From contig MCGT01000079.1 of NCBI GenBank assembly GCA_002104935.1, positions 1-13,530 of the forward strand: 13,530 nt of DNA, read 5' to 3'. Each line of letters opens with the position of its first letter. Within the stretch, counting starts at the first letter, position 1. The DNA is from Hesseltinella vesiculosa. Its lineage: Eukaryota; Mucoromycota; Mucoromycetes; Mucorales; Cunninghamellaceae. Below, piece after piece: positions 1 through 13,530 of this stretch. The translations under genes were made by a program, and so were the position numbers. A model generated the notes under the pieces. That model saw only the letters and a list, made by a program, of their open reading frames with translations. It was not told the origin of the DNA and did no database searches.

Positions 1-118
1 TCCAGGCACCAACCGTTTGCCATCTGTCGAACCCCAGAGCTGAATGCATTGCTGTTACCTCCACCTTAATGCCCTGCAAGCCGAGCTTGAGCATAGCCAT
101 GGGGTGCCTGGTGTTTGA

Positions 119-382
119 ATGATTAGGCACTGTCTTGGTAAGCCTCTATTTCTGTACAGATCGGTCAAACTCACTTTTCACTCTCTTGCTGATAAAGAAA
201 AACAAGAATCAACAAGTCATTTGCAGCCTAGTTCAGCAACATCGATAATCTTTTTTCAAGAGTTGCATCAGCTTGGCTTTGACGAGAGAAATGAGCTACC
301 AGATGCAGCGGACAGCTTCACAGCCATGTACAGCAGCCCCCCTACCGGACCCTTTCAACCAACTACCACTCGGCGACGTTGA
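119..382 (+). CDS. possible small hypothetical protein (low confidence)
   Basis: An ATG at 119 opens a frame to a TGA ending at 382, and an in-frame TGA sits just upstream of it. A possible intron runs from 138 (GTAAGC donor) to 197, with a CTCAC branch point and a GATAAAG acceptor. It is 60 nt long, so the frame stays open whether it is spliced (67 aa) or retained (87 aa). The product is Ser/Thr/Gln-rich and ends in a short Arg run. I recognise no domain, signal peptide or membrane segment. It overlaps the ORF at 291-812 in another frame, so at most one of them is likely to be real. Chance openness is a fair alternative. Confidence 0.2.
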   Translation: MIRHCLGKPLFLYRSVKLTFHSLADKEKQESTSHLQPSSATSIIFFQELHQLGFDERNELPDAADSFTAMYSSPPTGPFQPTTTRRR

Positions 383-812
383 TCAAGAATTGTCATGGCC
401 AATGGGCTCATTGTCTGCGAAGGTTAGCCGGCCACAACAAGTGCAGAACAATATTGAGCTGAACCAAGCATTTGTCGACGTCATGGGCAACTTGGAACAC
501 AAAGCCCTCCCTTGTAGCCTGGCCAACACCGGGCGTCATCATTTTGGCAACCGAATCAGTATGCACGTGCAATTTTGTTTGCCTTTGAAAGGTTGCTTGG
601 AGTCTTTCTGGCTGCTCTGCCCACCATCACAATCAAACTCGTCGACTCCCTGCATCTGCTGTTATCGAGGTATGACAAAAGAAATGAACCTCTTTTCTCA
701 AGACGTGCCCAAGCCTTTTCCTTCACTCATTGGCTTCAATCATACCCAAGTGTTGCACGAAGCGCTGATATCCTGTTTGGTCGATGCACTGCATAAGTAT
801 TTTGCCGTGTAA
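291..812 (+). CDS. possible hypothetical protein, 173 aa (low confidence)
   Basis: An ATG-started frame of 173 codons, the longest open stretch in the first 1.4 kb. The predicted product is rich in Cys, Ser, Pro and Leu, with a Cys-rich middle (roughly residues 95-135). It has no recognisable motif and no convincing membrane span. The openness may be accidental. No good splice signals extend it, and neither a poly(A) signal nor a promoter is evident. It is kept because no other gene explains the interval. Confidence 0.22.
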   Translation: MSYQMQRTASQPCTAAPLPDPFNQLPLGDVDQELSWPMGSLSAKVSRPQQVQNNIELNQAFVDVMGNLEHKALPCSLANTGRHHFGNRISMHVQFCLPLKGCLESFWLLCPPSQSNSSTPCICCYRGMTKEMNLFSQDVPKPFPSLIGFNHTQVLHEALISCLVDALHKYFAV

Positions 813-1516
813 TTGTAAATACGAGGCGATTTATTGAGCGTGGCTTTTTTTTTCATAGCTTTATCGAAATGAAAGGTGATGGGGCCTCGGTAGATTGACA
901 GCATCAGTCCTACAAATATGTCCACCATGTTTTGTGCTGGTCCATTTTCATTGCTGCCAATGCCCAGCAAAAGGTCACGATTGTTTGCTTCTGGAAACAC
1001 CCGCCTCTCACGTTTTGGGCAAGCAATGGAACAAGAGGGGATAGTTTTATTATTAAGGAGGTGTTACGGATGAAAATGGCAAAAAAGACGATGGATGGAA
1101 ATGTTTCTGAAGTACGAGGTTTTCCAGGAACCGATATACTTTTCAAGGACAAAACGCGTGAAGTTTAAAACTGGATTCAAAAAGACGTGAAGCATTGTCA
1201 ATGGAGTGAGATCTCGAAAAATCGGGTAGCTTCCAGCTTTTCCTCCAGTTTCCTTGTGTTGTAGAGTTGGATCTTTTGTAAGTTCCATTCAAGTATATGT
1301 TTGCGAAAGTACGTTGAGACCCAATTTGGCCAAGGGTAGTTGGTTTTTTTTTTTTTTAAAAAAAAAAAAAAGCTAAAAATAGCCGGTCAACTGGTCAACT
1401 TCAAACCGCCTTGTAAGATTGAACTGCGGTTAATCGAGAGAGCCCAACGATGGCTCTGGGAATGATCATGGATCAAATATTGAGTGGTTGTACATTCGCT
1501 TCGATCTCTGGCCGTA
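813..1516. other. no supportable gene; AT-rich non-coding stretch
   Basis: Only short overlapping frames on both strands, under about 95 codons. There is a lone GTAAGT near 1275 with no partner acceptor that opens a frame. The T14-A14 palindrome lies here, at 1344-1371. Probably intergenic sequence upstream of the membrane-protein gene. Confidence 0.5.
1344..1371. repeat. T14-A14 homopolymer palindrome
   Basis: Fourteen T are followed directly by fourteen A, a perfect 28-bp self-complementary tract. It is likely to be nucleosome-depleting and could extrude as a hairpin. It lies about 300 bp upstream of the membrane-protein start and could be a promoter element, but that is inference. Confidence 0.85.
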
Positions 1517-1588
1517 ATGCCAACAAGCATTATCATGAGGTTCTCTATTGCACTTGATTCGAAGTCTGTCAACAGCTTGACAGATACG

Positions 1589-1669
1589 AAAAAAAAAAAA
1601 ATAAACACTGGGCGGCTGGTATTTTTTTCTGCTTCCTCTTCTTTAAATCCCATCGAGGTAAAAGCTTTC
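1589..1669 (+). promoter_or_regulatory. probable core promoter / 5' leader of the membrane-protein gene
   Basis: An A-run at about 1590-1602 is followed by a T/C-rich stretch (about 1620-1645) and then the ATG pair at 1670/1673. Pyrimidine-rich tracts just upstream of the start are common in fungal promoters. The reading frame is also open back to in-frame ATGs at 1517 and 1535, so this stretch could instead encode an N-terminal extension with a Lys run. Confidence 0.25.
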
Positions 1670-3376
1670 ATGATGTGCGTGCCTGCAATGATATCCCAAG
1701 TACCGATGCTTTTGTCTGCACTCTACTGCGTCATCCTGAATCTGCCAATGACGGCTGTCCTACCACCAACCAAAACTGACGTTCTCGTACCCACTCCCAC
1801 ACGTCCCCCAACGGCCGTACAAGTTTACCCTGCCGTTTCCCATCCTCAACCTGCATTGTTTGTTGCCGGTGATGTCTCATCCGTGGATGCCTTGTTGCCT
1901 TGGCTTTTGGCTGTATGCTTCATTCAACTGTTGCCTTTAATGTTGCGAAGCGTCTACCACGTTCCAGCTCTTGCCTCTGGTCTGTGCTCCCATCTTGCCA
2001 CTGTTTGGTCCCACACGACTTACTTGCTGCAATTCCTGGCTTTTTTGGCACAATTTCTTTGTTCGATAATGGTGCGACAACTCATGGCTGACATTTTCCT
2101 CGTCATTGACACCGTTGCTATGACACTTTCTTCTGTGGTGGCGGCTCTTTCCCAACGTTTTTGTTGTTTACTCGTTCGTTGTATTCGTTGGCTCGCTGTG
2201 AAAGCCATAGACATTCTCTGCTGTTTACTCGGCTGGCTCGCTGTGAAAGCCATAGACATTCTCTGCTGTTTACTCGGCTGGCTCGCCATGAAAGCCAAAG
2301 ACTTATTCTTTTGGTTGGTTGCCCACCTCATCTCCATTGCTGCCATTGCATGGAAAGGACACTTACAGGTAGCCTCGCTCATCTGGGATCCGCTCCTTAA
2401 TGCGTGTTACGAAAAAAGAGCAGCCTGGCTCGTACCCAAGCCCTTGCCCACGCCCACATCCACCATGCTGGCTGATATTGGCCCACTCTTCTACCCACCT
2501 GCAGCCACCCCCATCGCTGAGCCAATGGCCCCACCTCAGTCGTGGAATTCTTACCTACATGAACACGGCATTATTGCTACTCCTCCCACCATCGATTACT
2601 GGAAGCTCTGCATTGCTGGCGGTGATGGCTGCAACGATGCATTTGTTTTCGCCGACGCTGTAAGAATGGACTAACATAAAAGGCAACTTGACCCTGATCC
2701 TTTTTATTCTTTTTTTCGCCATACAGGCCTACAGGGAGAGAAAGGCACATGATGCCGAATGCAAACGATATGCATCTGAGCTTGCTCGAAGGCAGCGCAT
2801 AAACGACGTTTTCAAGGAAACGTTTGCACCCGTAAGTTTGTTAAATTATTTTTTGTAACAAAAAAAGGAAGAGAAACTCACTTCATTTCTTTCCCAATCA
2901 AAAATGAAGCCTGCCCAGCGCCAGGTAAGATATTATACCCTATAGCTGAAAAAGAGAGCATGTAATCCTCATATTATTTTTCTTTGTAACTGATAGCCCA
3001 TCGACATCGACGCGCTTCGAGTATACTACGGTTTACCTCCCTACCCTGTAAGATTGTGAAAAAAAAAAATAGATACCTAAATTTCGTCTCTTATTCTTAC
3101 TTGTATTGTTTAGCCTCCAGCAGACCCGCCAGATGAGCCTGTGACCGAATCCGTGCCCCACAATGCCCCAATTCCGTTCAAGTTCGCACCGGTACAACAC
3201 GATCGCCTTCCACCTCCCTTGGTACCAGCGTATCACGCTGCTCCTGCTGGTGCGTTATTCCACCCTGGGCAATTTGTAAGTAGTAGCAAAATCAGACAGT
3301 GCATGGCACTCACTACGATTTATCCCCATTTCTTTAGGAGAAGAGCAAAGGCAAGCGCAGACGCCGACCACACTGA
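1670..3376 (+). CDS. multi-pass membrane protein with Pro-rich, basic tail (unrecognised family), 6 exons, 453 aa
   Basis: Exons are 1670-2659, 2727-2831, 2910-2924, 2997-3047, 3114-3275 and 3338-3376. Every intron is phase 0, with GTAAG donors and AG acceptors, and the frame stays open to a TGA. Residues 13-31 are hydrophobic and could be a signal anchor. Further hydrophobic stretches lie at about 74-92, 117-135, 142-160 and 164-227. The last contains three copies of a 15-residue WLAxKAxD motif at 174-218. The remainder is probably cytosolic: a charged helix (RERKAHDAE...KRYASELARRQR), a Pro-rich section and a KSKGKRRRRPH end that could act as a basic retention or nuclear signal. I do not recognise the family and assign no function. 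The start is uncertain: ATGs at 1670 and 1673 follow a pyrimidine-rich leader, while in-frame ATGs at 1517 and 1535 would add about 45-51 residues. The third exon is a 15-nt microexon (PAQRQ). Confidence 0.72.
2189..2323 (+). repeat. 45-bp in-frame tandem repeat, three copies
   Basis: Copies lie at 2189-2233, 2234-2278 and 2279-2323. The first two are identical at the DNA level and the third has diverged. Each encodes 15 residues of the type WLAVKAIDILCCLLG, an amphipathic or membrane-embedded segment with Lys and Asp spaced three apart. The identity of copies 1 and 2 points to recent duplication inside the coding sequence. Confidence 0.9.
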
Positions 3377-3396
3377 AACCAGGCACATGAAGCTTC

Positions 3397-3492
3397 AAAA
3401 CAAAACAAAAAAGAAAAAAAAAGAAAAAAAAAGAAAAAAAAAAAAAAAAAAAAAAAAAAAAGAAAAAAAAAGAAAAAAAAAGAAAAAAGAAA
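3397..3492. repeat. A-rich purine tract, (A)n-G
   Basis: About 95 bp of almost pure A interrupted by single G (and early C) residues, starting about 20 bp after the membrane-protein stop. It could be the 3' UTR or terminator of that gene. The frame from the ATG at 3387 reads through it as a Lys-rich run into the exon at 3513, which is probably fortuitous. Confidence 0.85.
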
Positions 3493-3512
3493 TAGCAGTA
3501 CCTATAAGCTTC

Positions 3513-3723
3513 ATGTTTCTATGTCACCTGCGCATGCTCCATCAAACCTCCAGCCTTTGTCCTGTAAGTAGACTGTCGTTTAGAAAACATAAAATCACTA
3601 GCAACTCACTCTTTTTTCCTGGGGACCGACATTTAGGCCCTGGCCCTGCCACAGCCACCTCCACCACCAGCACGAATACGAGCCCCAACGCGGGCACAGC
3701 GGTTGACTGGTCGACTTCGTCCC
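3513..3723 (+). CDS. possible first exons of a proline-rich gene leading into the tandem exon array
   Basis: An ATG at 3513 opens a 17-codon exon ending at 3563 (CCT, then GTAAGT). An intron at 3564-3636, with CTCAC branch point, pyrimidines and TTTAG, joins it in phase 0 to the 87-nt exon 3637-3723. That exon reads ALALPQPPPPPARIRAP and ends with CCC before GTAAGTT. It is the first copy of the array and the only one before the last whose length is a multiple of three. It also carries 8 bp (TGGTCGAC) that all other copies lack. Downstream, the spliced frame closes: copy 2 has an in-frame TAG when its first acceptor is used, and otherwise a TGA arises in copy 4. The product is therefore either very short or the gene is decayed. 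The function is unknown. Confidence 0.35.
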
Positions 3724-3947
3724 GTAAGTTAGAATGTTGTATGAAAGTGTGGAATTGCCGGCTGCTCACTGTTTTTTTTTCATGTAGGCTCCCGTGTAGG
3801 CGCTGGCCCTGCCACAGCCGCTCCCACCACCGCCACCACCACCAGTACGCCCCAACATGGGCACAGCGGTTGACTTCGTCCCGTAAGTTAGAATGTTGTA
3901 TGAAAGTGTGGAATTGCCAGCTGCTCACTGTTTTTTTTTTCCTGTAG

Positions 3948-4727
3948 GCTCCCGTGTTGGCGCTGGCCCTGCCACAGCCGCTCCCACCACCACCACCAGT
4001 ACGCCCCAACACGGGCACAGCGGTTGACTTCGTCCCGTAAGTTAGAATGTTGTATGAAAGTGTGGAATTGCCGGCTGCTCACTGTTTTTTTTTCCTGTAG
4101 GCTCCCGTGTTGGCGCTGGCCCTGCCACAGCCGCTCCCACCACCGCCACCACCACCAGTACGCCCCAACACGGGCACAGCGGTTGACTTCGTCCCGTAAG
4201 TTAGAATATTGTATGAAAGTGTGGAATTGCCAGTTGCTCACTGTTTTTTTTCCTGTAGGCTCCCGTGTTGGCGCTGGCCCTGCCACAGCCGCTCCCACCA
4301 CCACCAGTACGCCCCAACATGGGCACAGCGGTTGACTTCGTCCCGTAAGTTAGAATGTTGTATGAAAGTGTGGAATTGCCAGTTGCTCACTGTTTTTTTT
4401 TCCTGTAGGCTCCCGTGTTGGCGCTGGCCCTGCCACAGCCGCTCCCACCACCACCGCCACCACCAGTACGCCCCAACATGGGCACAGCGGTTGACTTCGT
4501 CCCGTAAGTTAGAATGTTGTATGAAAGTGTGGAATTGCCGAGCTGCTCACTGTTTTTTTTTCCTGTAGGCTCCCGTGTTGGCGCTGACCCTGCCACAGCC
4601 GTTCCCACCACCACGCCACCACCAGTACGCCCCAACACGGGCACAGCGGTTGACTTCGTCCCGTAAGTTAGAATATTGTATGAAAGTGTGGAATTGCCAG
4701 CTGCTCACTGTTTTTTTTTTCCTGTAG
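3948..4727 (+). repeat. higher-order block A (units 3-7)
   Basis: Five units with exon lengths 89, 95, 86, 95 and 94. It shares marker variants with blocks B and C: the 86-nt exon follows the GAATATTG donor variant, and the last unit carries GCTGACCC plus CCGTTCCC and ends in another GAATATTG donor. Relative to block B it lacks one 95-nt unit. Confidence 0.75.
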
Positions 4728-5672
4728 GCTCCCGTGTTGGCGCTGGCCCTGCCACAGCCGCTCCCACCACCCACCACCAGTACGCCCCAACACGGGCACA
4801 GCGGTTGACTTCGTCCCGTAAGTTAGAATGTTGTATGAAAGTGTGGAATTGCCGGCTGCTCACTGTTTTTTTTTCCTGTAGGCTCCCGTGTTGGCGCTGG
4901 CCCTGCCACAGCCGCTCCCACCACCACCGCCACCACCACCAGTACGCCCCAACACGGGCACAGCGGTTGACTTCGTCCCGTAAGTTAGAATATTGTATGA
5001 AAGTGTGGAATTGCCAGTTGCTCACTGTTTTTTTTCCTGTAGGCTCCCGTGTTGGCGCTGGCCCTGCCACAGCCGCTCCCACCACCACCAGTACGCCCCA
5101 ACATGGGCACAGCGGTTGACTTCGTCCCGTAAGTTAGAATGTTGTATGAAAGTGTGGAATTGCCAGTTGCTCACTGTTTTTTTTTCCTGTAGGCTCCCGT
5201 GTTGGCGCTGGCCCTGCCACAGCCGCTCCCACCACCACCGCCACCACCAGTACGCCCCAACATGGGCACAGCGGTTGACTTCGTCCCGTAAGTTAGAATG
5301 TTGTATGAAAGTGTGGAATTGCCGGCTGCTCACTGTTTTTTTTTTCCTGTAGGCTCCCGTGTTGGCGCTGACCCTGCCACAGCCGCTCCCACCACCACCG
5401 CCACCACCAGTACGCCCCAACATGGGCACAGCGGTTGACTTCGTCCCGTAAGTTAGAATGTTGTATGAAAGTGTGGAATTGCCAGTTGCTCACTGTTTTT
5501 TTTTTCCTGTAGGCTCCCGTGTTGGCGCTGACCCTGCCACAGCCGTTCCCACCACCACCGCCACCACCAGTACGCCCCAACACGGGCACAGCGGTTGACT
5601 TCGTCCCGTAAGTTAGAATATTGTATGAAAGTGTGGAATTGCCAGCTGCTCACTGTTTTTTTTTTCCTGTAG
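4728..5672 (+). repeat. higher-order block B (units 8-13, 945 bp)
   Basis: Exon lengths are 90, 98, 86, 95, 95 and 95. The order of variants is the same as in block C (86, 98, 86, 95, 95, 95) and nearly the same as in block A. This shows that multi-unit segments, not only single units, were duplicated. Confidence 0.8.
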
Positions 5673-6614
5673 GCTCCCGTGTTGGCGCTGGCCCTGCCAC
5701 AGCCGCTCCCACCACCACCAGTACGCCCCAACACGGGCACAGCGGTTGACTTCGTCCCGTAAGTTAGAATGTTGTATGAAAGTGTGGAATTGCCGGCTGC
5801 TCACTGTTTTTTTTTCCTGTAGGCTCCCGTGTTGGCGCTGGCCCTGCCACAGCCGCTCCCACCACCACCGCCACCACCACCAGTACGCCCCAACACGGGC
5901 ACAGCGGTTGACTTCGTCCCGTAAGTTAGAATATTGTATGAAAGTGTGGAATTGCCAGTTGCTCACTGTTTTTTTTCCTGTAGGCTCCCGTGTTGGCGCT
6001 GGCCCTGCCACAGCCGCTCCCACCACCACCAGTACGCCCCAACATGGGCACAGCGGTTGACTTCGTCCCGTAAGTTAGAATGTTGTATGAAAGTGTGGAA
6101 TTGCCAGTTGCTCACTGTTTTTTTTTCCTGTAGGCTCCCGTGTTGGCGCTGGCCCTGCCACAGCCGCTCCCACCACCACCGCCACCACCAGTACGCCCCA
6201 ACATGGGCACAGCGGTTGACTTCGTCCCGTAAGTTAGAATGTTGTATGAAAGTGTGGAATTGCCAGCTGCTCACTGTTTTTTTTTTCCTGTAGGCTCCCG
6301 TGTTGGCGCTGGCCCTGCCACAGCCGCTCCCACCACCACCGCCACCACCAGTACGCCCCAACATGGGCACAGCGGTTGACTTCGTCCCGTAAGTTAGAAT
6401 GTTGTATGAAAGTGTGGAATTGCCAGCTGCTCACTGTTTTTTTTTTTCCTGTAGGCTCCCGTGTTGGCGCTGGCCCTGCCACAGCCGCTCCCACCACCAC
6501 CGCCACCACCAGTACGCCCCAACATGGGCACAGCGGTTGACTTCGTCCCGTAAGTTAGAATGTTGTATGAAAGTGTGGAATTGCCGGCTGCTCACTGTTT
6601 TTTTTTTCCTGTAG
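5673..6614 (+). repeat. higher-order block C (units 14-19, 942 bp)
   Basis: Six units matching block B in order and in variant markers, except that its last donor reads GAATGTTG rather than GAATATTG. Units 20-22 follow with less regular sequence. Confidence 0.8.
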
Positions 6615-6712
6615 GCTCCCGTGTTGGCGCTGGCCCTGCCACAGCCGCTCCCACCACCACCGCCACCACCACCAGTACGCCCCAACACGGGCACAGCGGT
6701 TGACTTCGTCCC

Positions 6713-6785
6713 GTAAGTTAGAATGTTGTATGAAAGTGTGGGATTGCCAGCTGCTCACAGCTGCTCACTGTTTTTTTTCGTGTAG
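6713..6785 (+). other. intron 20 of the array, with duplicated branch-point box
   Basis: This intron is 73 nt rather than 63-66 because AGCTGCTCAC is tandemly repeated, giving two CTCAC boxes before the T-run. Its acceptor is CGTGTAG instead of CCTGTAG. Confidence 0.85.
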
Positions 6786-7110
6786 GCTCCCGTGTTGGCG
6801 CTGGCCCTGCCACAGCCGCTCCCACCACCACCGCCACCACCAGTATGCCCCAACACGGGCACAGCGGTTGACTTCGTCCCGTAAGTTAGAATGTTGTATG
6901 AAAGTGTGGAATTGCCGACTGCTCACTGTTTTTTTTTCCTGTAGGCTCCCGTGTTGGCGCTGGCCCTGCCACAGCCGCTCCCACCACCACCGCCACCACC
7001 ACCACCAGTACGAGCCCAACAAGGGAAAAGCGGTTGACTTCGTCTTGTGAGTTAGACTGTTATTTGAAAGCGTGGAATGATTGGTTGCTCATTATTTTAT
7101 TTTCTTGTAG

Positions 7111-7151: not shown

Positions 7152-7527
7152 GATACCCGGGTTAGATAACCCTTGCTTAAACGATACCCTGCTTAAACGA
7201 TACCCTGCTTAAACGATACCCTGCTTAAATGATACCCTGCTTAAATGATACCCTGCTAACGATACCCAACTTGACGATACCCTGCCTAGACGATACCCAA
7301 CCTTGACGATACCCTGCCCAGACGATACCCTACCCAGACGATACCCTGCCTAAACGATACCCTACCTAGACGATACCCTACCTAGACGATACCCAACTTT
7401 GATGATACCCTACCCAGACGATACCCAACCTAGATGAAATGCTCTGTCTGGAAGATGCCCTGCCTTGAGATACCCAGCCTAGACGATTCCCAGTAGATGA
7501 TACCCAGCCTGGAAGATACATCTAGAC
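7152..7527. repeat. degenerate minisatellite, about 16-bp unit (GATACCCTGCTTAAAC)
   Basis: Nineteen exact GATACCC heptamers occur between 7152 and 7505, spaced mostly 15-16 bp apart. The left part is the most uniform (TGCTTAAAC linkers). The middle alternates TGCCTAGAC, CAACTTGAC and TACCCAGAC types, and the right end decays (GATGCCC, GATTCCC, GATACAT). Because 16 is not a multiple of three and the unit contains CTTAA, no long frame is maintained. It is not a known telomeric motif. Confidence 0.93.
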
Positions 7528-7892: not shown

Positions 7893-8592
7893 ATGGATTT
7901 CATTTGGACAGCGATGGTACAAACACCATGGACACATGCTATTTACTGGACACAATGGGCTTCTTGCATACTTAGCGGGCTCTTTTGCGAAGTCAACCCC
8001 AAAGCCAAATGTAAGCACCTTACCCCTTAAGAAACTGGAAATGACTCACTGATTTCATTCTCTCTTTTATTTTTGCCAATCCTTGTCCCTGGCATAAAAT
8101 GGAATGGTTTTTCGGCAAAAAACCATATCATTTTGTGTCAGTGGGTTGCATTCTGGAAATTTTTCCTCCTCAATATTTGGTAAGCTATTTTTGTCTCCTC
8201 TTCCGGCCCTGAAAACCCACACTGACCGCCTTTTTTTTATTGTATGGGTACTTTCCTGTTACAACTGCTCCTGATGGCTCATGACATGCTGCAAAACTGC
8301 CTCATCCAGTTTCCCAAAATTAACCTATTGGTATGTAATACGCGGTCTTAGATTTCCCGTTTTAGACAAGCGGACCTGACATTCTCTTTTTTTTTTCTGC
8401 ATGACTGGGTCATATCACTTTGTATAATTTTGGCCCACTACAAGAACTTTGGACTGGATCATGTAAGTTTTCTTGTTAGATGTTACCCACAAGTAATGAG
8501 GAACAGTGATAACTCGTCTTTTTTTGTGTTAGCCCTTGACCAGCCTCCCTGAATTGCCGTCCAGGGGAGGCGGTCAGCCTTACCTTAGCTAG
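7893..8592 (+). pseudogene. multi-exon hydrophobic protein gene, degraded or with non-AG acceptors (unrecognised)
   Basis: A canonical CAG acceptor at 7892 precedes an open 39-codon segment (WISFGQRWYKHH...) ending at a GTAAGC donor at 8011. Further donors are at 8180 (GTAAGC), 8331 (GTATGT) and 8463 (GTAAGT). The last intron ends canonically (TGTGTTAG at 8532) before a 19-codon terminal exon with stop TAG at 8590-8592. Three internal introns have branch-point boxes and T-runs but no AG nearby. If the TG ending each pyrimidine run is used (exons from 8076, 8243 and 8400), all phases agree. About 105 further hydrophobic codons then stay open to the stop. If the first downstream AG is used instead (8141, 8309, 8444), the exons are tiny and a TGA appears at the 8330/8445 junction. 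I do not recognise the protein. It has several membrane-like stretches and a short Pro/Gly-rich end. Confidence 0.35.
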
Positions 8593-10103: not shown

Positions 10104-11837
10104 TTACCATAGTAATTTCAAAGGGACTTGAGTGTCATGAGGCGTGGTATCTTTCAAAAAGAGACCCTCTGGGCGGAATTCGTCGATGAGCGAGGCGCTA
10201 TAGGTTAATTGGGCTTCCCAGGTCTTTGCGCTGGTGGTGTGGTCGGGCAAGACATACATACGCGCACGGTTGCGATGGTAGTTGAGCACAGACGACTTGG
10301 TTTGGTGGACGAGCACCTGAGGCATAAACTGCATAGCCAGCCCCAAGTTTCCCACATCAACCGTCTCCTCGTCATCCAGCGACAAGGCTGGGTGGAATAC
10401 TGACTTCAGCGCATGCAAAGGAACCGAAGTTTGTGGCGGCTTGCTTTCCTTGTATTCAAAATCATACAGGTCTAGTTTTGTTGCATGAAGCACAGCCCAG
10501 TACCGTTGCCATTTCTGTAAAAAAAAAAAAAAAAAGAAGGGGAGCGGTGCTGGAGCTGAGTTTCACTTCATTTCAGCCGCCTTGTTTTTGAGTAGGGCTT
10601 ACAGGTATGACGCTGCCTCGGATGTAAATGGTCAAGAAATCGGCATGGAGTCGTTGATTGGCGATCAGCAATTGGGCATGTTCGTTCATATAAGAGCCAT
10701 AGACCACGTTGACATGAAAAGTGCCTTGGTCGTGTTGAAACTTGATAGTATGCTTTTGCTTAGCGAATGGCTTAAGCGACAGAGCAAAATCTTGTTGTCC
10801 AATAGTAATGTCTTTCCTCTTCTTGTTGTAACCCAGGAGCTTCTTGGGTGCCTTGACATCTATCCGCAATGTCACCAGATTTGGCTGATCCATTTCCCTG
10901 CAAGGAAAATAAGGCGGTGATCATCAAGACATGCCACTTGAGGTAGTCGTTTTTTTTTTACAGCAAAAAAATGTGATCCAAGTCGACTTGACTGGTTAAC
11001 TTGCCATTCTTGGCGCGATTGACATAGGAGCCGGTACATAGCTGATCCTGGATTTGCACGGTGCATCGATATTGCTGGGCTTGTAAGCAGATGGGATATA
11101 AGCAGCCGCAGTGCTATGTTTTTTTTAAAAAAAAAAATACCTTTTGAATGGCTGGGCATGGTGATATTTAAAACTGTGCCAAAAGAAAAAGGAAAAAAAA
11201 AATTGGAGCCATTGCCATTGTAACAGAATATCTAGTTACCTCGTAAATAAAACATGGCTTTTGGCTTTTCCAATAGCCGAGGGTTGGCCGCCCTGAAGAA
11301 AAAAAAAGAGACAGGCATTGGTTGACAGCGCGGTTTTTTTTTTTTTTTCGCTTACGAGGATTGGTGCTTCATGTGTGGTTTGCGCAGAAGGATGGGTTTA
11401 TCAGATTTCGAGAGATTGGCACTAGGAAGCTCGGGGGCAAAGGAGGAGTCGTTGATCCAGGCGAGCTTCTGAGTGGGAAATTGATCGAGTGTATCAAGCA
11501 TGCCATTGTAATAGATAGAAGGTTCACGCCGGGTCACAGGCAGAGGCATGGGCAGGTTCATTTCCTCTGACTCTGCAAGTGCTGGCAGCTGCTTTTCTTC
11601 TTGCTCCTCCTCTTCCTCCAACACTTCTGTAATGTCCATGACAGTCTTGCTCTTTTTGAGTGCCAGTTTTTGGTAGTATGGCTTTTTTGATTTGATCTCC
11701 GAGTGTGATTGTGAAGGCACGATGGTGCGCTTCGATTTGCGAGTGGTAAAGAGCTTTTGCACCGTTGACCCTGGCCAACTCCGTAGGCTCAAGGACCGCC
11801 GCCTGGGGATCCTCTGGCGAAAATGGCCGATTTTCAT
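10104..11837 (-). CDS. anillin/Bud4-like septation protein with C-terminal PH domain, 6 exons, 463 aa
   Basis: Exons (minus strand) are 11837-11356, 11292-11240, 11173-11141, 11079-10962, 10897-10603 and 10514-10104. They total 1392 nt with a clean frame. All introns are GT-AG, in phases 2, 1, 1, 2 and 0. Residues 1-66 are basic, an acidic run (LEEEEEQEE) lies near 73-81, and residues about 170-315 resemble an anillin homology region (QYRCTVQIQDQLCTGSYV; later LVTLRIDVKAPKKLLG). Residues about 316-440 look like a PH domain: KWQRYWAVL, then LDLYDFEYKESKP, VDVGNLGLAMQF, and a final helix around KTWEAQLTYSASL. Proteins of this type bind lipid and scaffold septin/actomyosin rings at the division site. 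That role is inferred by family resemblance, not from a search. The ATG is preceded by an in-frame TAA and an A-run. At 463 aa it is short for anillins, so a missing upstream exon is possible. The 5' two-thirds lie inside the inverted repeat. Confidence 0.7.
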
Positions 11838-12070
11838 TTTTTTTTAGCTGAGGAATCGGAGGTGTCAAAGCGAAACTGAACAAAAGTTGGCTGTACGACC
11901 TCCACCAATCGGCGTGATTTTTTCAATATTCTCATCATTTATACCTTTGCACATTTGATCAAAATTTCACGTCGATCTAATCACTCAAAAGCGAGGTACA
12001 GCATTTCGTGTTTTTTTTCAAAATGAGGAAAAAGAACTTGGATGGCCATATTCAGTCTCCGCACAGTGCC
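10793..12070. repeat. left arm of a large inverted repeat (at least 1278 bp)
   Basis: It is the reverse complement of 12255-13530. I aligned the arms by eye through splice sites and homopolymers (for example A/T runs of 15, 9, 10 and 11 match in length). I found only two differences, each a single extra base in the left arm: GGG against GG near 11077-11079, and GGTTAAC against GGTAAC near 11000. The arm covers the first five exons (the fifth in part) and the upstream region of the anillin-like gene. Its outer end cannot be set because the right arm leaves the window. Confidence 0.93.
11838..12022 (-). promoter_or_regulatory. upstream region of the anillin-like gene (left arm copy)
   Basis: AT-rich, with a candidate TATA-like TATAAATGATGAG on the minus strand near 11930-11945. 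It is mirrored exactly at 12303-12487, so both gene copies have the same upstream sequence. No specific factor site is recognised. Confidence 0.35.
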
Positions 12071-12148
12071 TTCCTGGCCGGTTCACATAGGGCAATTCCA
12101 ATCCATTTCAAAGATCCAACCTTCTCCAAAGCAATCCAAAATAAATAG
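12023..12148 (+). CDS. short ORF (41 codons) running from the left arm into the spacer
   Basis: The ATG at 12023 starts MRKKNLDGHIQSPHSAF, identical to the start of the opposing ORF at 12302. It then leaves the repeat and ends at a TAG at 12146-12148. It is divergent from the anillin-like gene, so it could be the truncated start of an original neighbouring gene. No domain is visible and it is very short. Confidence 0.2.
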   Translation: MRKKNLDGHIQSPHSAFLAGSHRAIPIHFKDPTFSKAIQNK

Positions 12149-12254
12149 CCCCGACGTGATGAAGAAATATCGCCACAACCTTGGTCATGTCGCACTTGAC
12201 GAAGGCACCAGCTTTTACAGTTCGCTGTAGCCACGCGCGCATGCCAGGACCAAA
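12071..12254. other. 184-bp asymmetric spacer of the inverted repeat
   Basis: Unique sequence between the arms. It is not itself palindromic, so this is not a simple zero-spacer fold-back. Short ORFs enter it from both sides and overlap antisense. Confidence 0.85.
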
Positions 12255-12302
12255 GGCACTGTGCGGAGACTGAATATGGCCATCCAAGTTCTTTTTCCTC
12301 AT
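12108..12302 (-). CDS. short ORF (64 codons) running from the right arm into the spacer
   Basis: The minus-strand ATG at 12302 has the same first 17 codons as the ORF at 12023. It then reads FGPGMRAWLQRTVKAGAF and a hydrophobic stretch (VVAIFLHHVGAIYFGLLW) before a TGA at 12108. It overlaps the opposing ORF by 41 bp. It may be the beginning of a real divergent neighbour cut by the duplication, but this is unproven. Confidence 0.25.
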   Translation of the reverse strand: MRKKNLDGHIQSPHSAFGPGMRAWLQRTVKAGAFVKCDMTKVVAIFLHHVGAIYFGLLWRRLDL

Positions 12303-13530
12303 TTTGAAAAAAAACACGAAATGCTGTACCTCGCTTTTGAGTGATTAGATCGACGTGAAATTTTGATCAAATGTGCAAAGGTATAAATGATGAGAATATT
12401 GAAAAAATCACGCCGATTGGTGGAGGTCGTACAGCCAACTTTTGTTCAGTTTCGCTTTGACACCTCCGATTCCTCAGCTAAAAAAAAATGAAAATCGGCC
12501 ATTTTCGCCAGAGGATCCCCAGGCGGCGGTCCTTGAGCCTACGGAGTTGGCCAGGGTCAACGGTGCAAAAGCTCTTTACCACTCGCAAATCGAAGCGCAC
12601 CATCGTGCCTTCACAATCACACTCGGAGATCAAATCAAAAAAGCCATACTACCAAAAACTGGCACTCAAAAAGAGCAAGACTGTCATGGACATTACAGAA
12701 GTGTTGGAGGAAGAGGAGGAGCAAGAAGAAAAGCAGCTGCCAGCACTTGCAGAGTCAGAGGAAATGAACCTGCCCATGCCTCTGCCTGTGACCCGGCGTG
12801 AACCTTCTATCTATTACAATGGCATGCTTGATACACTCGATCAATTTCCCACTCAGAAGCTCGCCTGGATCAACGACTCCTCCTTTGCCCCCGAGCTTCC
12901 TAGTGCCAATCTCTCGAAATCTGATAAACCCATCCTTCTGCGCAAACCACACATGAAGCACCAATCCTCGTAAGCGAAAAAAAAAAAAAAACCGCGCTGT
13001 CAACCAATGCCTGTCTCTTTTTTTTTCTTCAGGGCGGCCAACCCTCGGCTATTGGAAAAGCCAAAAGCCATGTTTTATTTACGAGGTAACTAGATATTCT
13101 GTTACAATGGCAATGGCTCCAATTTTTTTTTTCCTTTTTCTTTTGGCACAGTTTTAAATATCACCATGCCCAGCCATTCAAAAGGTATTTTTTTTTTTAA
13201 AAAAAACATAGCACTGCGGCTGCTTATATCCCATCTGCTTACAAGCCAGCAATATCGATGCACCGTGCAAATCCAGGATCAGCTATGTACCGGCTCCTAT
13301 GTCAATCGCGCCAAGAATGGCAAGTTACCAGTCAAGTCGACTTGGATCACATTTTTTTGCTGTAAAAAAAAAACGACTACCTCAAGTGGCATGTCTTGAT
13401 GATCACCGCCTTATTTTCCTTGCAGGGAAATGGATCAGCCAAATCTGGTGACATTGCGGATAGATGTCAAGGCACCCAAGAAGCTCCTGGGTTACAACAA
13501 GAAGAGGAAAGACATTACTATTGGACAACA
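12255..13530. repeat. right arm of the large inverted repeat (continues beyond the window)
   Basis: Reverse complement of the left arm from its inner edge to the last base of the window. It is two bases shorter because of the two single-base differences described for the left arm. Confidence 0.93.
12488..13530 (+). pseudogene. second, head-to-head copy of the anillin-like gene, frameshifted and cut by the window end
   Basis: Exons mirror the intact copy: 12488-12969, 13033-13085, 13152-13184, 13246-13361 and 13426 onward. Exons 1-3 are identical to the other copy, so the first about 190 residues (basic region, acidic run, start of the anillin homology region) are the same. Exon 4 lacks one C at its first bases (AAGCC against AAGCCC) and one A later (GTTACC against GTTAACC). 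The first deletion shifts the frame right after the third splice junction and the second shifts it again rather than restoring it. The anillin homology region is therefore scrambled and the PH domain could not be reached in frame. If the deletions are sequencing errors in homopolymers, this would be an intact duplicate. The 3' part is outside the window. Confidence 0.6.

Follow-up and report, generated by a model that had tools for sequence, protein, structure and literature searches.

A tandem exon-intron array of the fungus Hesseltinella vesiculosa with predicted hairpins split by its introns

A stretch of DNA from Hesseltinella vesiculosa, a soil fungus of the Mucorales, raises the question of what 22 near-identical exon-plus-intron units in a row may produce when they are spliced. 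The stretch, hereafter the window, is contig MCGT01000079.1 at its full length of 13,530 nucleotides. A first-pass annotation had described these units and offered several readings of them, including a splicing-based diversity generator, a source of circular RNAs, and an expanded satellite that arose within a gene. From the sequence and its predicted folds, we consider it reasonably likely that the array is instead a non-coding run of exons in which each splice between neighbours would build one RNA hairpin, i.e., a set of tandem intron-split hairpins.

The array and its genomic setting

Parsing of the window confirmed 22 tandem exon-plus-intron units at 3637-7110, 18 of them distinct in sequence, while TRF called a period-160 array of 21.3 copies at 3709-7078. 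The anatomy first described was borne out 22 times: an exon, a GTAAG donor, a CTCAC box, a poly-T stretch, and a TAG acceptor. As delimited by parsing and junction folds, the 22 probable non-coding exons (3637-7046, forward strand, 86-102 nt) each consist of a 5' arm (CCCGTGTTGG), a CAG/CCACC linker, and a 3' arm (CCAACAYGGG...AGCGGTTGACTTCGTCC). The 22 introns (3724-7110, forward strand, 63-73 nt) each combine a GTRAG donor, a branch-like box, a T run, and a TAG acceptor, and a diverged 23rd array intron, the upstream-most, lies at 3564-3636 on the same strand. Across the 49 introns parsed in the window and four relative arrays, which range from 54 to 73 nt over all five arrays, donors were GTAAG in 48 cases and GTGAG in one, and acceptors were TAG in 45, AAG in three, and CAG in one. 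This uniformity is partly by construction, since the parser required a GTRAG donor, an NAG acceptor, and GTC[CT][CT] before the donor; as a counterweight, there was no missed unit between neighbouring parsed units. The GTC[CT][CT] requirement also left one further diverged intron upstream of the C35, C24, and C67 arrays outside the junction set.

The genome searched comprises 27.05 Mb in 85 contigs, the window being contig C77. The donor-side pattern matched 49 times in 27 Mb, 46 times in five arrays and three times in contig C55, and a reversed control of this pattern gave 0 matches in the same 27 Mb; the array is not a chance pattern. The four related arrays (C35, C24, C67, and C1) hold 6, 8, 7, and 5 parsed introns, respectively, and the first three are 94-96% alike across 4.8 kb. 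C77 holds the entire window array, C55 represents the same locus (98.6% to window 1-4295) and ends within the array, and the end of C20 is 99.4% identical to the window from 8483 onward. Overall, the array is real, and its copy number depends on a single contig (C77).

C77 is closed by a 100% inverted repeat (10793-12072 and 12253-13530), which may be a fold-back assembly artefact because C20 tracks the window between 8483 and 11802 and diverges after that. A 259-bp element (window 11814-12072 and 12253-12511) has at least 41 genome copies (906 first-look candidates, 40 scored), several of which form inverted pairs about 180 bp apart. The end of C28 (L015 1966-4781) copies window 1-2819 with 0 mismatches and 20 gaps, a pattern that resembles uncorrected long-read error near the end of a contig.

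Upstream of the array lies a protein-coding gene (1670-3376, forward strand), a membrane-protein-like ORF with introns. Among 5.8 billion proteins, the window ORF at 1676-2671 had one relative at E up to 0.01, the H. vesiculosa protein P0001 (99%); since this record is partial and stops short of the last intron, the last exon and the stop codon (3374-3376) are our own reading of the sequence. Pfam returned no match for seven window ORFs. Between this stop codon and the array is a genome-encoded A-rich tract (3397-3492), within the loop of an 11-bp inverted repeat (3381-3520). Directly downstream of the array is a GATACCC minisatellite of 16-bp units (7169-7519, forward strand) that is common to the relative arrays; it lies 3' of the array in the window and the four relatives, and is found with units of 16-20 bp in the related genes L010-L013, L020, and L021. 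Related genes also bear other tandem exon-intron arrays (L018 2829-3619, L019 4674-5625, L020 3762-4269, and L010 6520-6941).

Coding status of the array exons

The array exons are probably non-coding, as judged from their position after the upstream stop codon, their off-frame lengths, and stops in every frame. The array begins 3' of the upstream ORF's stop codon in the window (by our own reading), C35, and C24. Length is 2 modulo 3 in 18 of the 22 window exons, with all classes mixed in the other arrays, and the spliced window array carries 9, 10, and 11 stops across its three frames. The spliced short arrays have 1 to 6 stops per frame, and their open stretches reach 201 codons in C67, 175 in C24, and 147 in a different frame of C24, such that their frames alone prove little.

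These open stretches would fit an alternative in which the upstream protein continues into the exons as a low-complexity tail, with variants arising by alternative splicing. The public gene model P0002 (770 aa), for the sister gene at the C24 locus, likewise runs through the C24 array, and its joins FCP/APRVG (three) and VRP/APRIG (one) read as GTCCT/GCTCCCC, which are the splice sites proposed here; splice signals and gene model thus agree on the predicted splicing. However, P0002 enters the C24 array only by skipping 33 nt that contain the upstream ORF's stop codon, the window exons do not keep frame (although the short arrays retain long open stretches), and a truly coding array sits elsewhere, inside the ORF of the C35 gene (L010), as a separate run of 48-54 nt exons with frame kept. 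The genome does make coding exon arrays, and by its sequence the present array is not built like one, which leads us to regard a coding repeat as very improbable. In coding tandem exon duplication of the Dscam type, repeated exon-intron units carry exons that code and keep phase; the present array is alike in its repeated units, but its exons do not keep phase.

Predicted hairpins at the exon junctions

On the reading of the array as a run of intron-split hairpins, its main feature, absent from the first-pass annotation, is a complementarity between neighbouring exons. The 3' arm of an exon (CCAACACGG) is complementary to the 5' arm of the next exon (CCGTGTTGG), and joined neighbours give the stem-loop CGCCAACACGG-CCC-AGCGG-UU-GAC-(UUCU)-GUC-CU/GCU-CC-CCGUGUUGGCG, where the slash marks the splice junction, within the stem. 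Each of the 22 introns splits one hairpin, within the 3' strand of the inner stem. We folded junction sequences made of the last 40 nt of exon n and the first 26 nt of exon n+1, of which 28 of 49 are distinct. A full hairpin was predicted at 20 of the 23 window junctions, spanning approximately 3850-6960 on the forward strand (introns 3883-6944). The second window junction (intron 3724-3787, forward strand) has an 8-nt insert in its hairpin, the last (intron 7047-7110, forward strand) has a degenerate hairpin, and that of the diverged upstream-most intron has none. In the four other arrays, every one of the 26 parsed junctions was predicted to form the stem-loop, some of them with one or two pairs mismatched.

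Folding z scores ranged from -3.0 to -5.3 at the five junctions tested. A scan of the window and 13 loci for intron-like stretches recognised part of the array introns and yielded 83 candidates, 40 inside arrays and 43 outside. Values of z < -2.2 were obtained for 30/40 candidates inside arrays vs 0/43 outside (medians -3.2 vs 0.5), counts that include the near-duplicate loci C55/window, L018/L019, and C35/C24/C67. The other tandem arrays (L018/L019, 159-nt unit; L020, 197-nt unit) showed no junction hairpin, and their recognised introns had z of 0.3 to 2.2. When the 66-nt spliced query was compared with the genome, the candidates scored matched only as two halves meeting at the junction, no intact copy of the hairpin in genomic DNA was found within the searches made, and a covariance model run on window DNA found mainly the apical stub. 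To judge from these sequences, the array has the mark of an intron-split hairpin of the miR444/miRtop14 type, namely two arms in neighbouring exons that would be completed only after splicing.

Full-length folds of spliced and unspliced arrays differed. The inner stem was present at 40 of 49 junctions in the spliced folds (window 16/23, C35 6/6, C24 6/8, C67 7/7, C1 5/5), and the outer stem bridged 5 of 49 introns in the unspliced ones. Pairing probabilities agree with this for the window and C1; across some unspliced introns of C24, C35, and C67 they are high, up to 0.98, so that the switch is not clean in these three arrays.

Whether particular exons fit each other best was compared in C35, C24, and C67, the window and C1 arrays being too homogeneous for a comparison of join types. 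Mean energy was -26.6 kcal/mol for adjacent joins (n = 21), as against -24.2 kcal/mol for an exon joined with itself, as in back-splicing (n = 18), and -24.1 kcal/mol with one exon skipped (n = 18). When acceptors were permuted within these loci, the observed Watson-Crick count was reached in 0 of 20,000 permutations, and in 8 of 20,000 when each locus's first junction was left out. These data do not favour the circular RNAs suggested earlier, since the own-exon join is weaker than the adjacent one in C35, C24, and C67 (no difference being resolvable in the window or C1). The idea of a splicing-based diversity generator went unsupported, given the apparently non-coding nature of the exons and the better fit of the arms at adjacent joins.

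Covariation was evaluated on two alignments. The first (A1) covered 27 of the 28 distinct junctions, omitting that of the upstream-most window intron because it forms no hairpin; as A1 misplaced the window arms by one base, pairs were counted on a second alignment (A2) restricted to the four other arrays, which contribute 19 distinct junctions out of 26, with window junctions excluded. In A2, 96.1% of pair cells were standard, and seven base pairs (16 cells) showed changes on both sides. None of 500 shuffles did as well on the pairing and both-sides measures, while the count of further pair types fell within the shuffle range (67/500 as good). Sliding the partner by 1-3 bases left 0-1 both-sides-changed pairs in A2, and RNAalifold, unasked, proposed the same fold. 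The inner stem is invariant at seven of eight pairs in A2, with the remaining pair varying on one side only, and covariation thus supports the outer stem only, the inner stem being the part that needs splicing. The outer stem could also form before splicing, and covariation could be mimicked if imperfect palindromes were corrected at the DNA level; in addition, the close similarity of C35, C24, and C67 means that independent compensatory events are few.

That all covarying pairs lie in the outer stem, the part on the two sides of the intron, would also fit an alternative in which the arms act before splicing: a stem over each intron would bring the donor to its own acceptor and keep order among 22 near-identical splice sites, with the hairpin in the product a by-product. 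The better pairing of adjacent than of skipping joins in C35, C24, and C67, and the bridging predicted for some of their unspliced introns, are in line with such a splicing aid. Against it stand the rarity of bridged introns in the unspliced folds, the family's other tandem exon-intron arrays, which do without such arms, and the window itself, in which arms fit about as well whichever two units are combined. We therefore regard this alternative as unlikely.

The way in which the array has grown bears on a further possibility, namely a selfish or neutral satellite that expanded inside a gene by unequal exchange, with arms kept by template switching at the DNA level rather than by a function of the RNA. 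The longest exact repeat inside the array is 553 nt at a lag of 941, about six units, which indicates growth partly by multi-unit duplication, and the earlier description of a satellite that arose within a gene holds. The adjoining minisatellite and the other, unstructured tandem exon-intron arrays of related genes also speak for satellite expansion. A purely neutral origin, however, sits poorly with a fold common to five arrays and with the pattern of conservation. Splice signals are kept despite an identity of 59% between window introns (without the two end introns, win_0 and win_22) and those of the other arrays. Moreover, exons are more alike than introns in five of five arrays, with mean pairwise identities in the window of 0.97 for exons and 0.93 for introns (including the two diverged end introns). 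Kept splice signals together with exons more alike than introns are the pattern that would be expected from selection for splicing and on exon sequence, and we give the selfish or neutral satellite only a small probability.

Possible function and relation to known systems

If the array does build intron-split hairpins, the exon run would belong either to the 3' untranslated region of a gene or to a non-coding RNA next to it, the region would be transcribed and its introns removed one by one, and the mature RNA would carry about 20 hairpins on CCACC linkers. The most likely use, of which we are much less sure, is that a factor recognising double-stranded or hairpin RNA would read these hairpins, with splicing as the gate. 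We place a precursor of small RNAs of the RNase III/Dicer type slightly above a tandem protein-binding scaffold. An RNase III/Dicer substrate is suggested by the size of the hairpins, by matches in the genome to likely small-RNA machinery (one to Piwi, two paired RNase III domains on C3, and a further such domain on C6), by RNAi on exonic RNA in Mucor, and by a second, longer covarying hairpin at 8083-8148. The most conserved part of the array hairpin, however, is the apical stem and not the arms, which is unlike a typical small-RNA precursor, argues against a Dicer substrate, and would fit a protein-binding site better. A search of 27 Mb with the 21-nt junction-crossing 3' arm (C-type only) gave one match with three mismatches, and the reversed control also gave one.

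The second long hairpin (8083-8148, forward strand, downstream of the array) is contiguous in the DNA and common to related loci (L016, L018, L019, and L020). It comprises about 25 bp, five of its 22 pairs are changed on both sides among four loci, and it ends beside a possible acceptor (GTGTCAG/TGG), like a tailed mirtron. Another hairpin, with a conserved RTTGCC loop region, is found at 8531-8582 and in L018, L019, L020, L021, and L013; hairpins of this type lie just 5' of a shared 3' tail and fold at -11 to -27 kcal/mol.

Two further classes were also considered and rejected. Introners, i.e., mobile introns, do not fit because the donor-side pattern is confined to these arrays and always occurs as a whole exon-intron unit. 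As to a tandem snoRNA host gene, cmscan with Rfam yielded no snoRNA family for either the window or L010-L013, and the introns measure only 54-73 nt. No Rfam family reached its gathering score in the window, where Flavo-1 at 1324-1393 (below gathering score, E 0.4) was judged a chance match, and no RNA family was found up to E 0.1 in L010-L013, L019, or L020.

Close parallels come from plants. According to the paper on miRtop14 (PMC11706861), miR444 of monocots and miRtop14 of Solanales are intron-split microRNA genes, and its authors knew of no earlier intron-split case outside the miR444 family. As predicted for the present array, an intron splits the hairpin, and in the plant genes efficient small-RNA production needs its removal (PMC11706861). 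The same paper places the intron between miRNA-5p and miRNA-3p (PMC11706861), whereas in the array it interrupts the inner stem on its 3' strand; moreover, the plant genes have one hairpin each, while the array is fungal and would hold 20 or more in tandem.

Tandem non-coding exon-intron units are familiar from SNHG14, the host of SNORD116 and SNORD115 (PMC11608373, PMC4742849). The scale of the array, which the first-pass annotation called unusual, is accordingly only partly so, since tandem introns in SNHG14 occur in runs of 29 and 48 (PMC11608373). Its product is a snoRNA in each intron, whereas the structured part here is exonic and split. For Mucor circinelloides, of the same fungal order as the host of the array, the abstract of one study reports RNAi acting on exonic RNA, with exon-derived small RNAs from protein-coding exons, and mentions no hairpin array (PMC3720535). 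Single intron-split hairpins and tandem non-coding exon-intron arrays are thus known, and their combination seems to be without a report in the open-licence literature, where the matches listed included no tandem intron-split hairpin, nor any intron-split hairpin in a fungus.

Taken together, these observations lead us to suggest, tentatively and as a possibility we would not yet call probable, that a fungal gene family has evolved splicing-gated hairpin arrays, in which some 20 split hairpins without intact units in the DNA are switched on together, either as a tandem small-RNA precursor or as a multivalent binding scaffold. If so, such loci can escape the standard mapping of small RNAs to genomic DNA, since their arms are never adjacent in the genome. 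The array would also provide a natural and easily scored system for the coupling of splicing and folding, and for the way in which a spliceosome deals in order with 22 near-identical splice sites. Splicing would then serve as a folding switch for RNA structure many times in one transcript, and the array would extend intron-split hairpins to fungi, being to our knowledge the first case outside plants and also the first in tandem.
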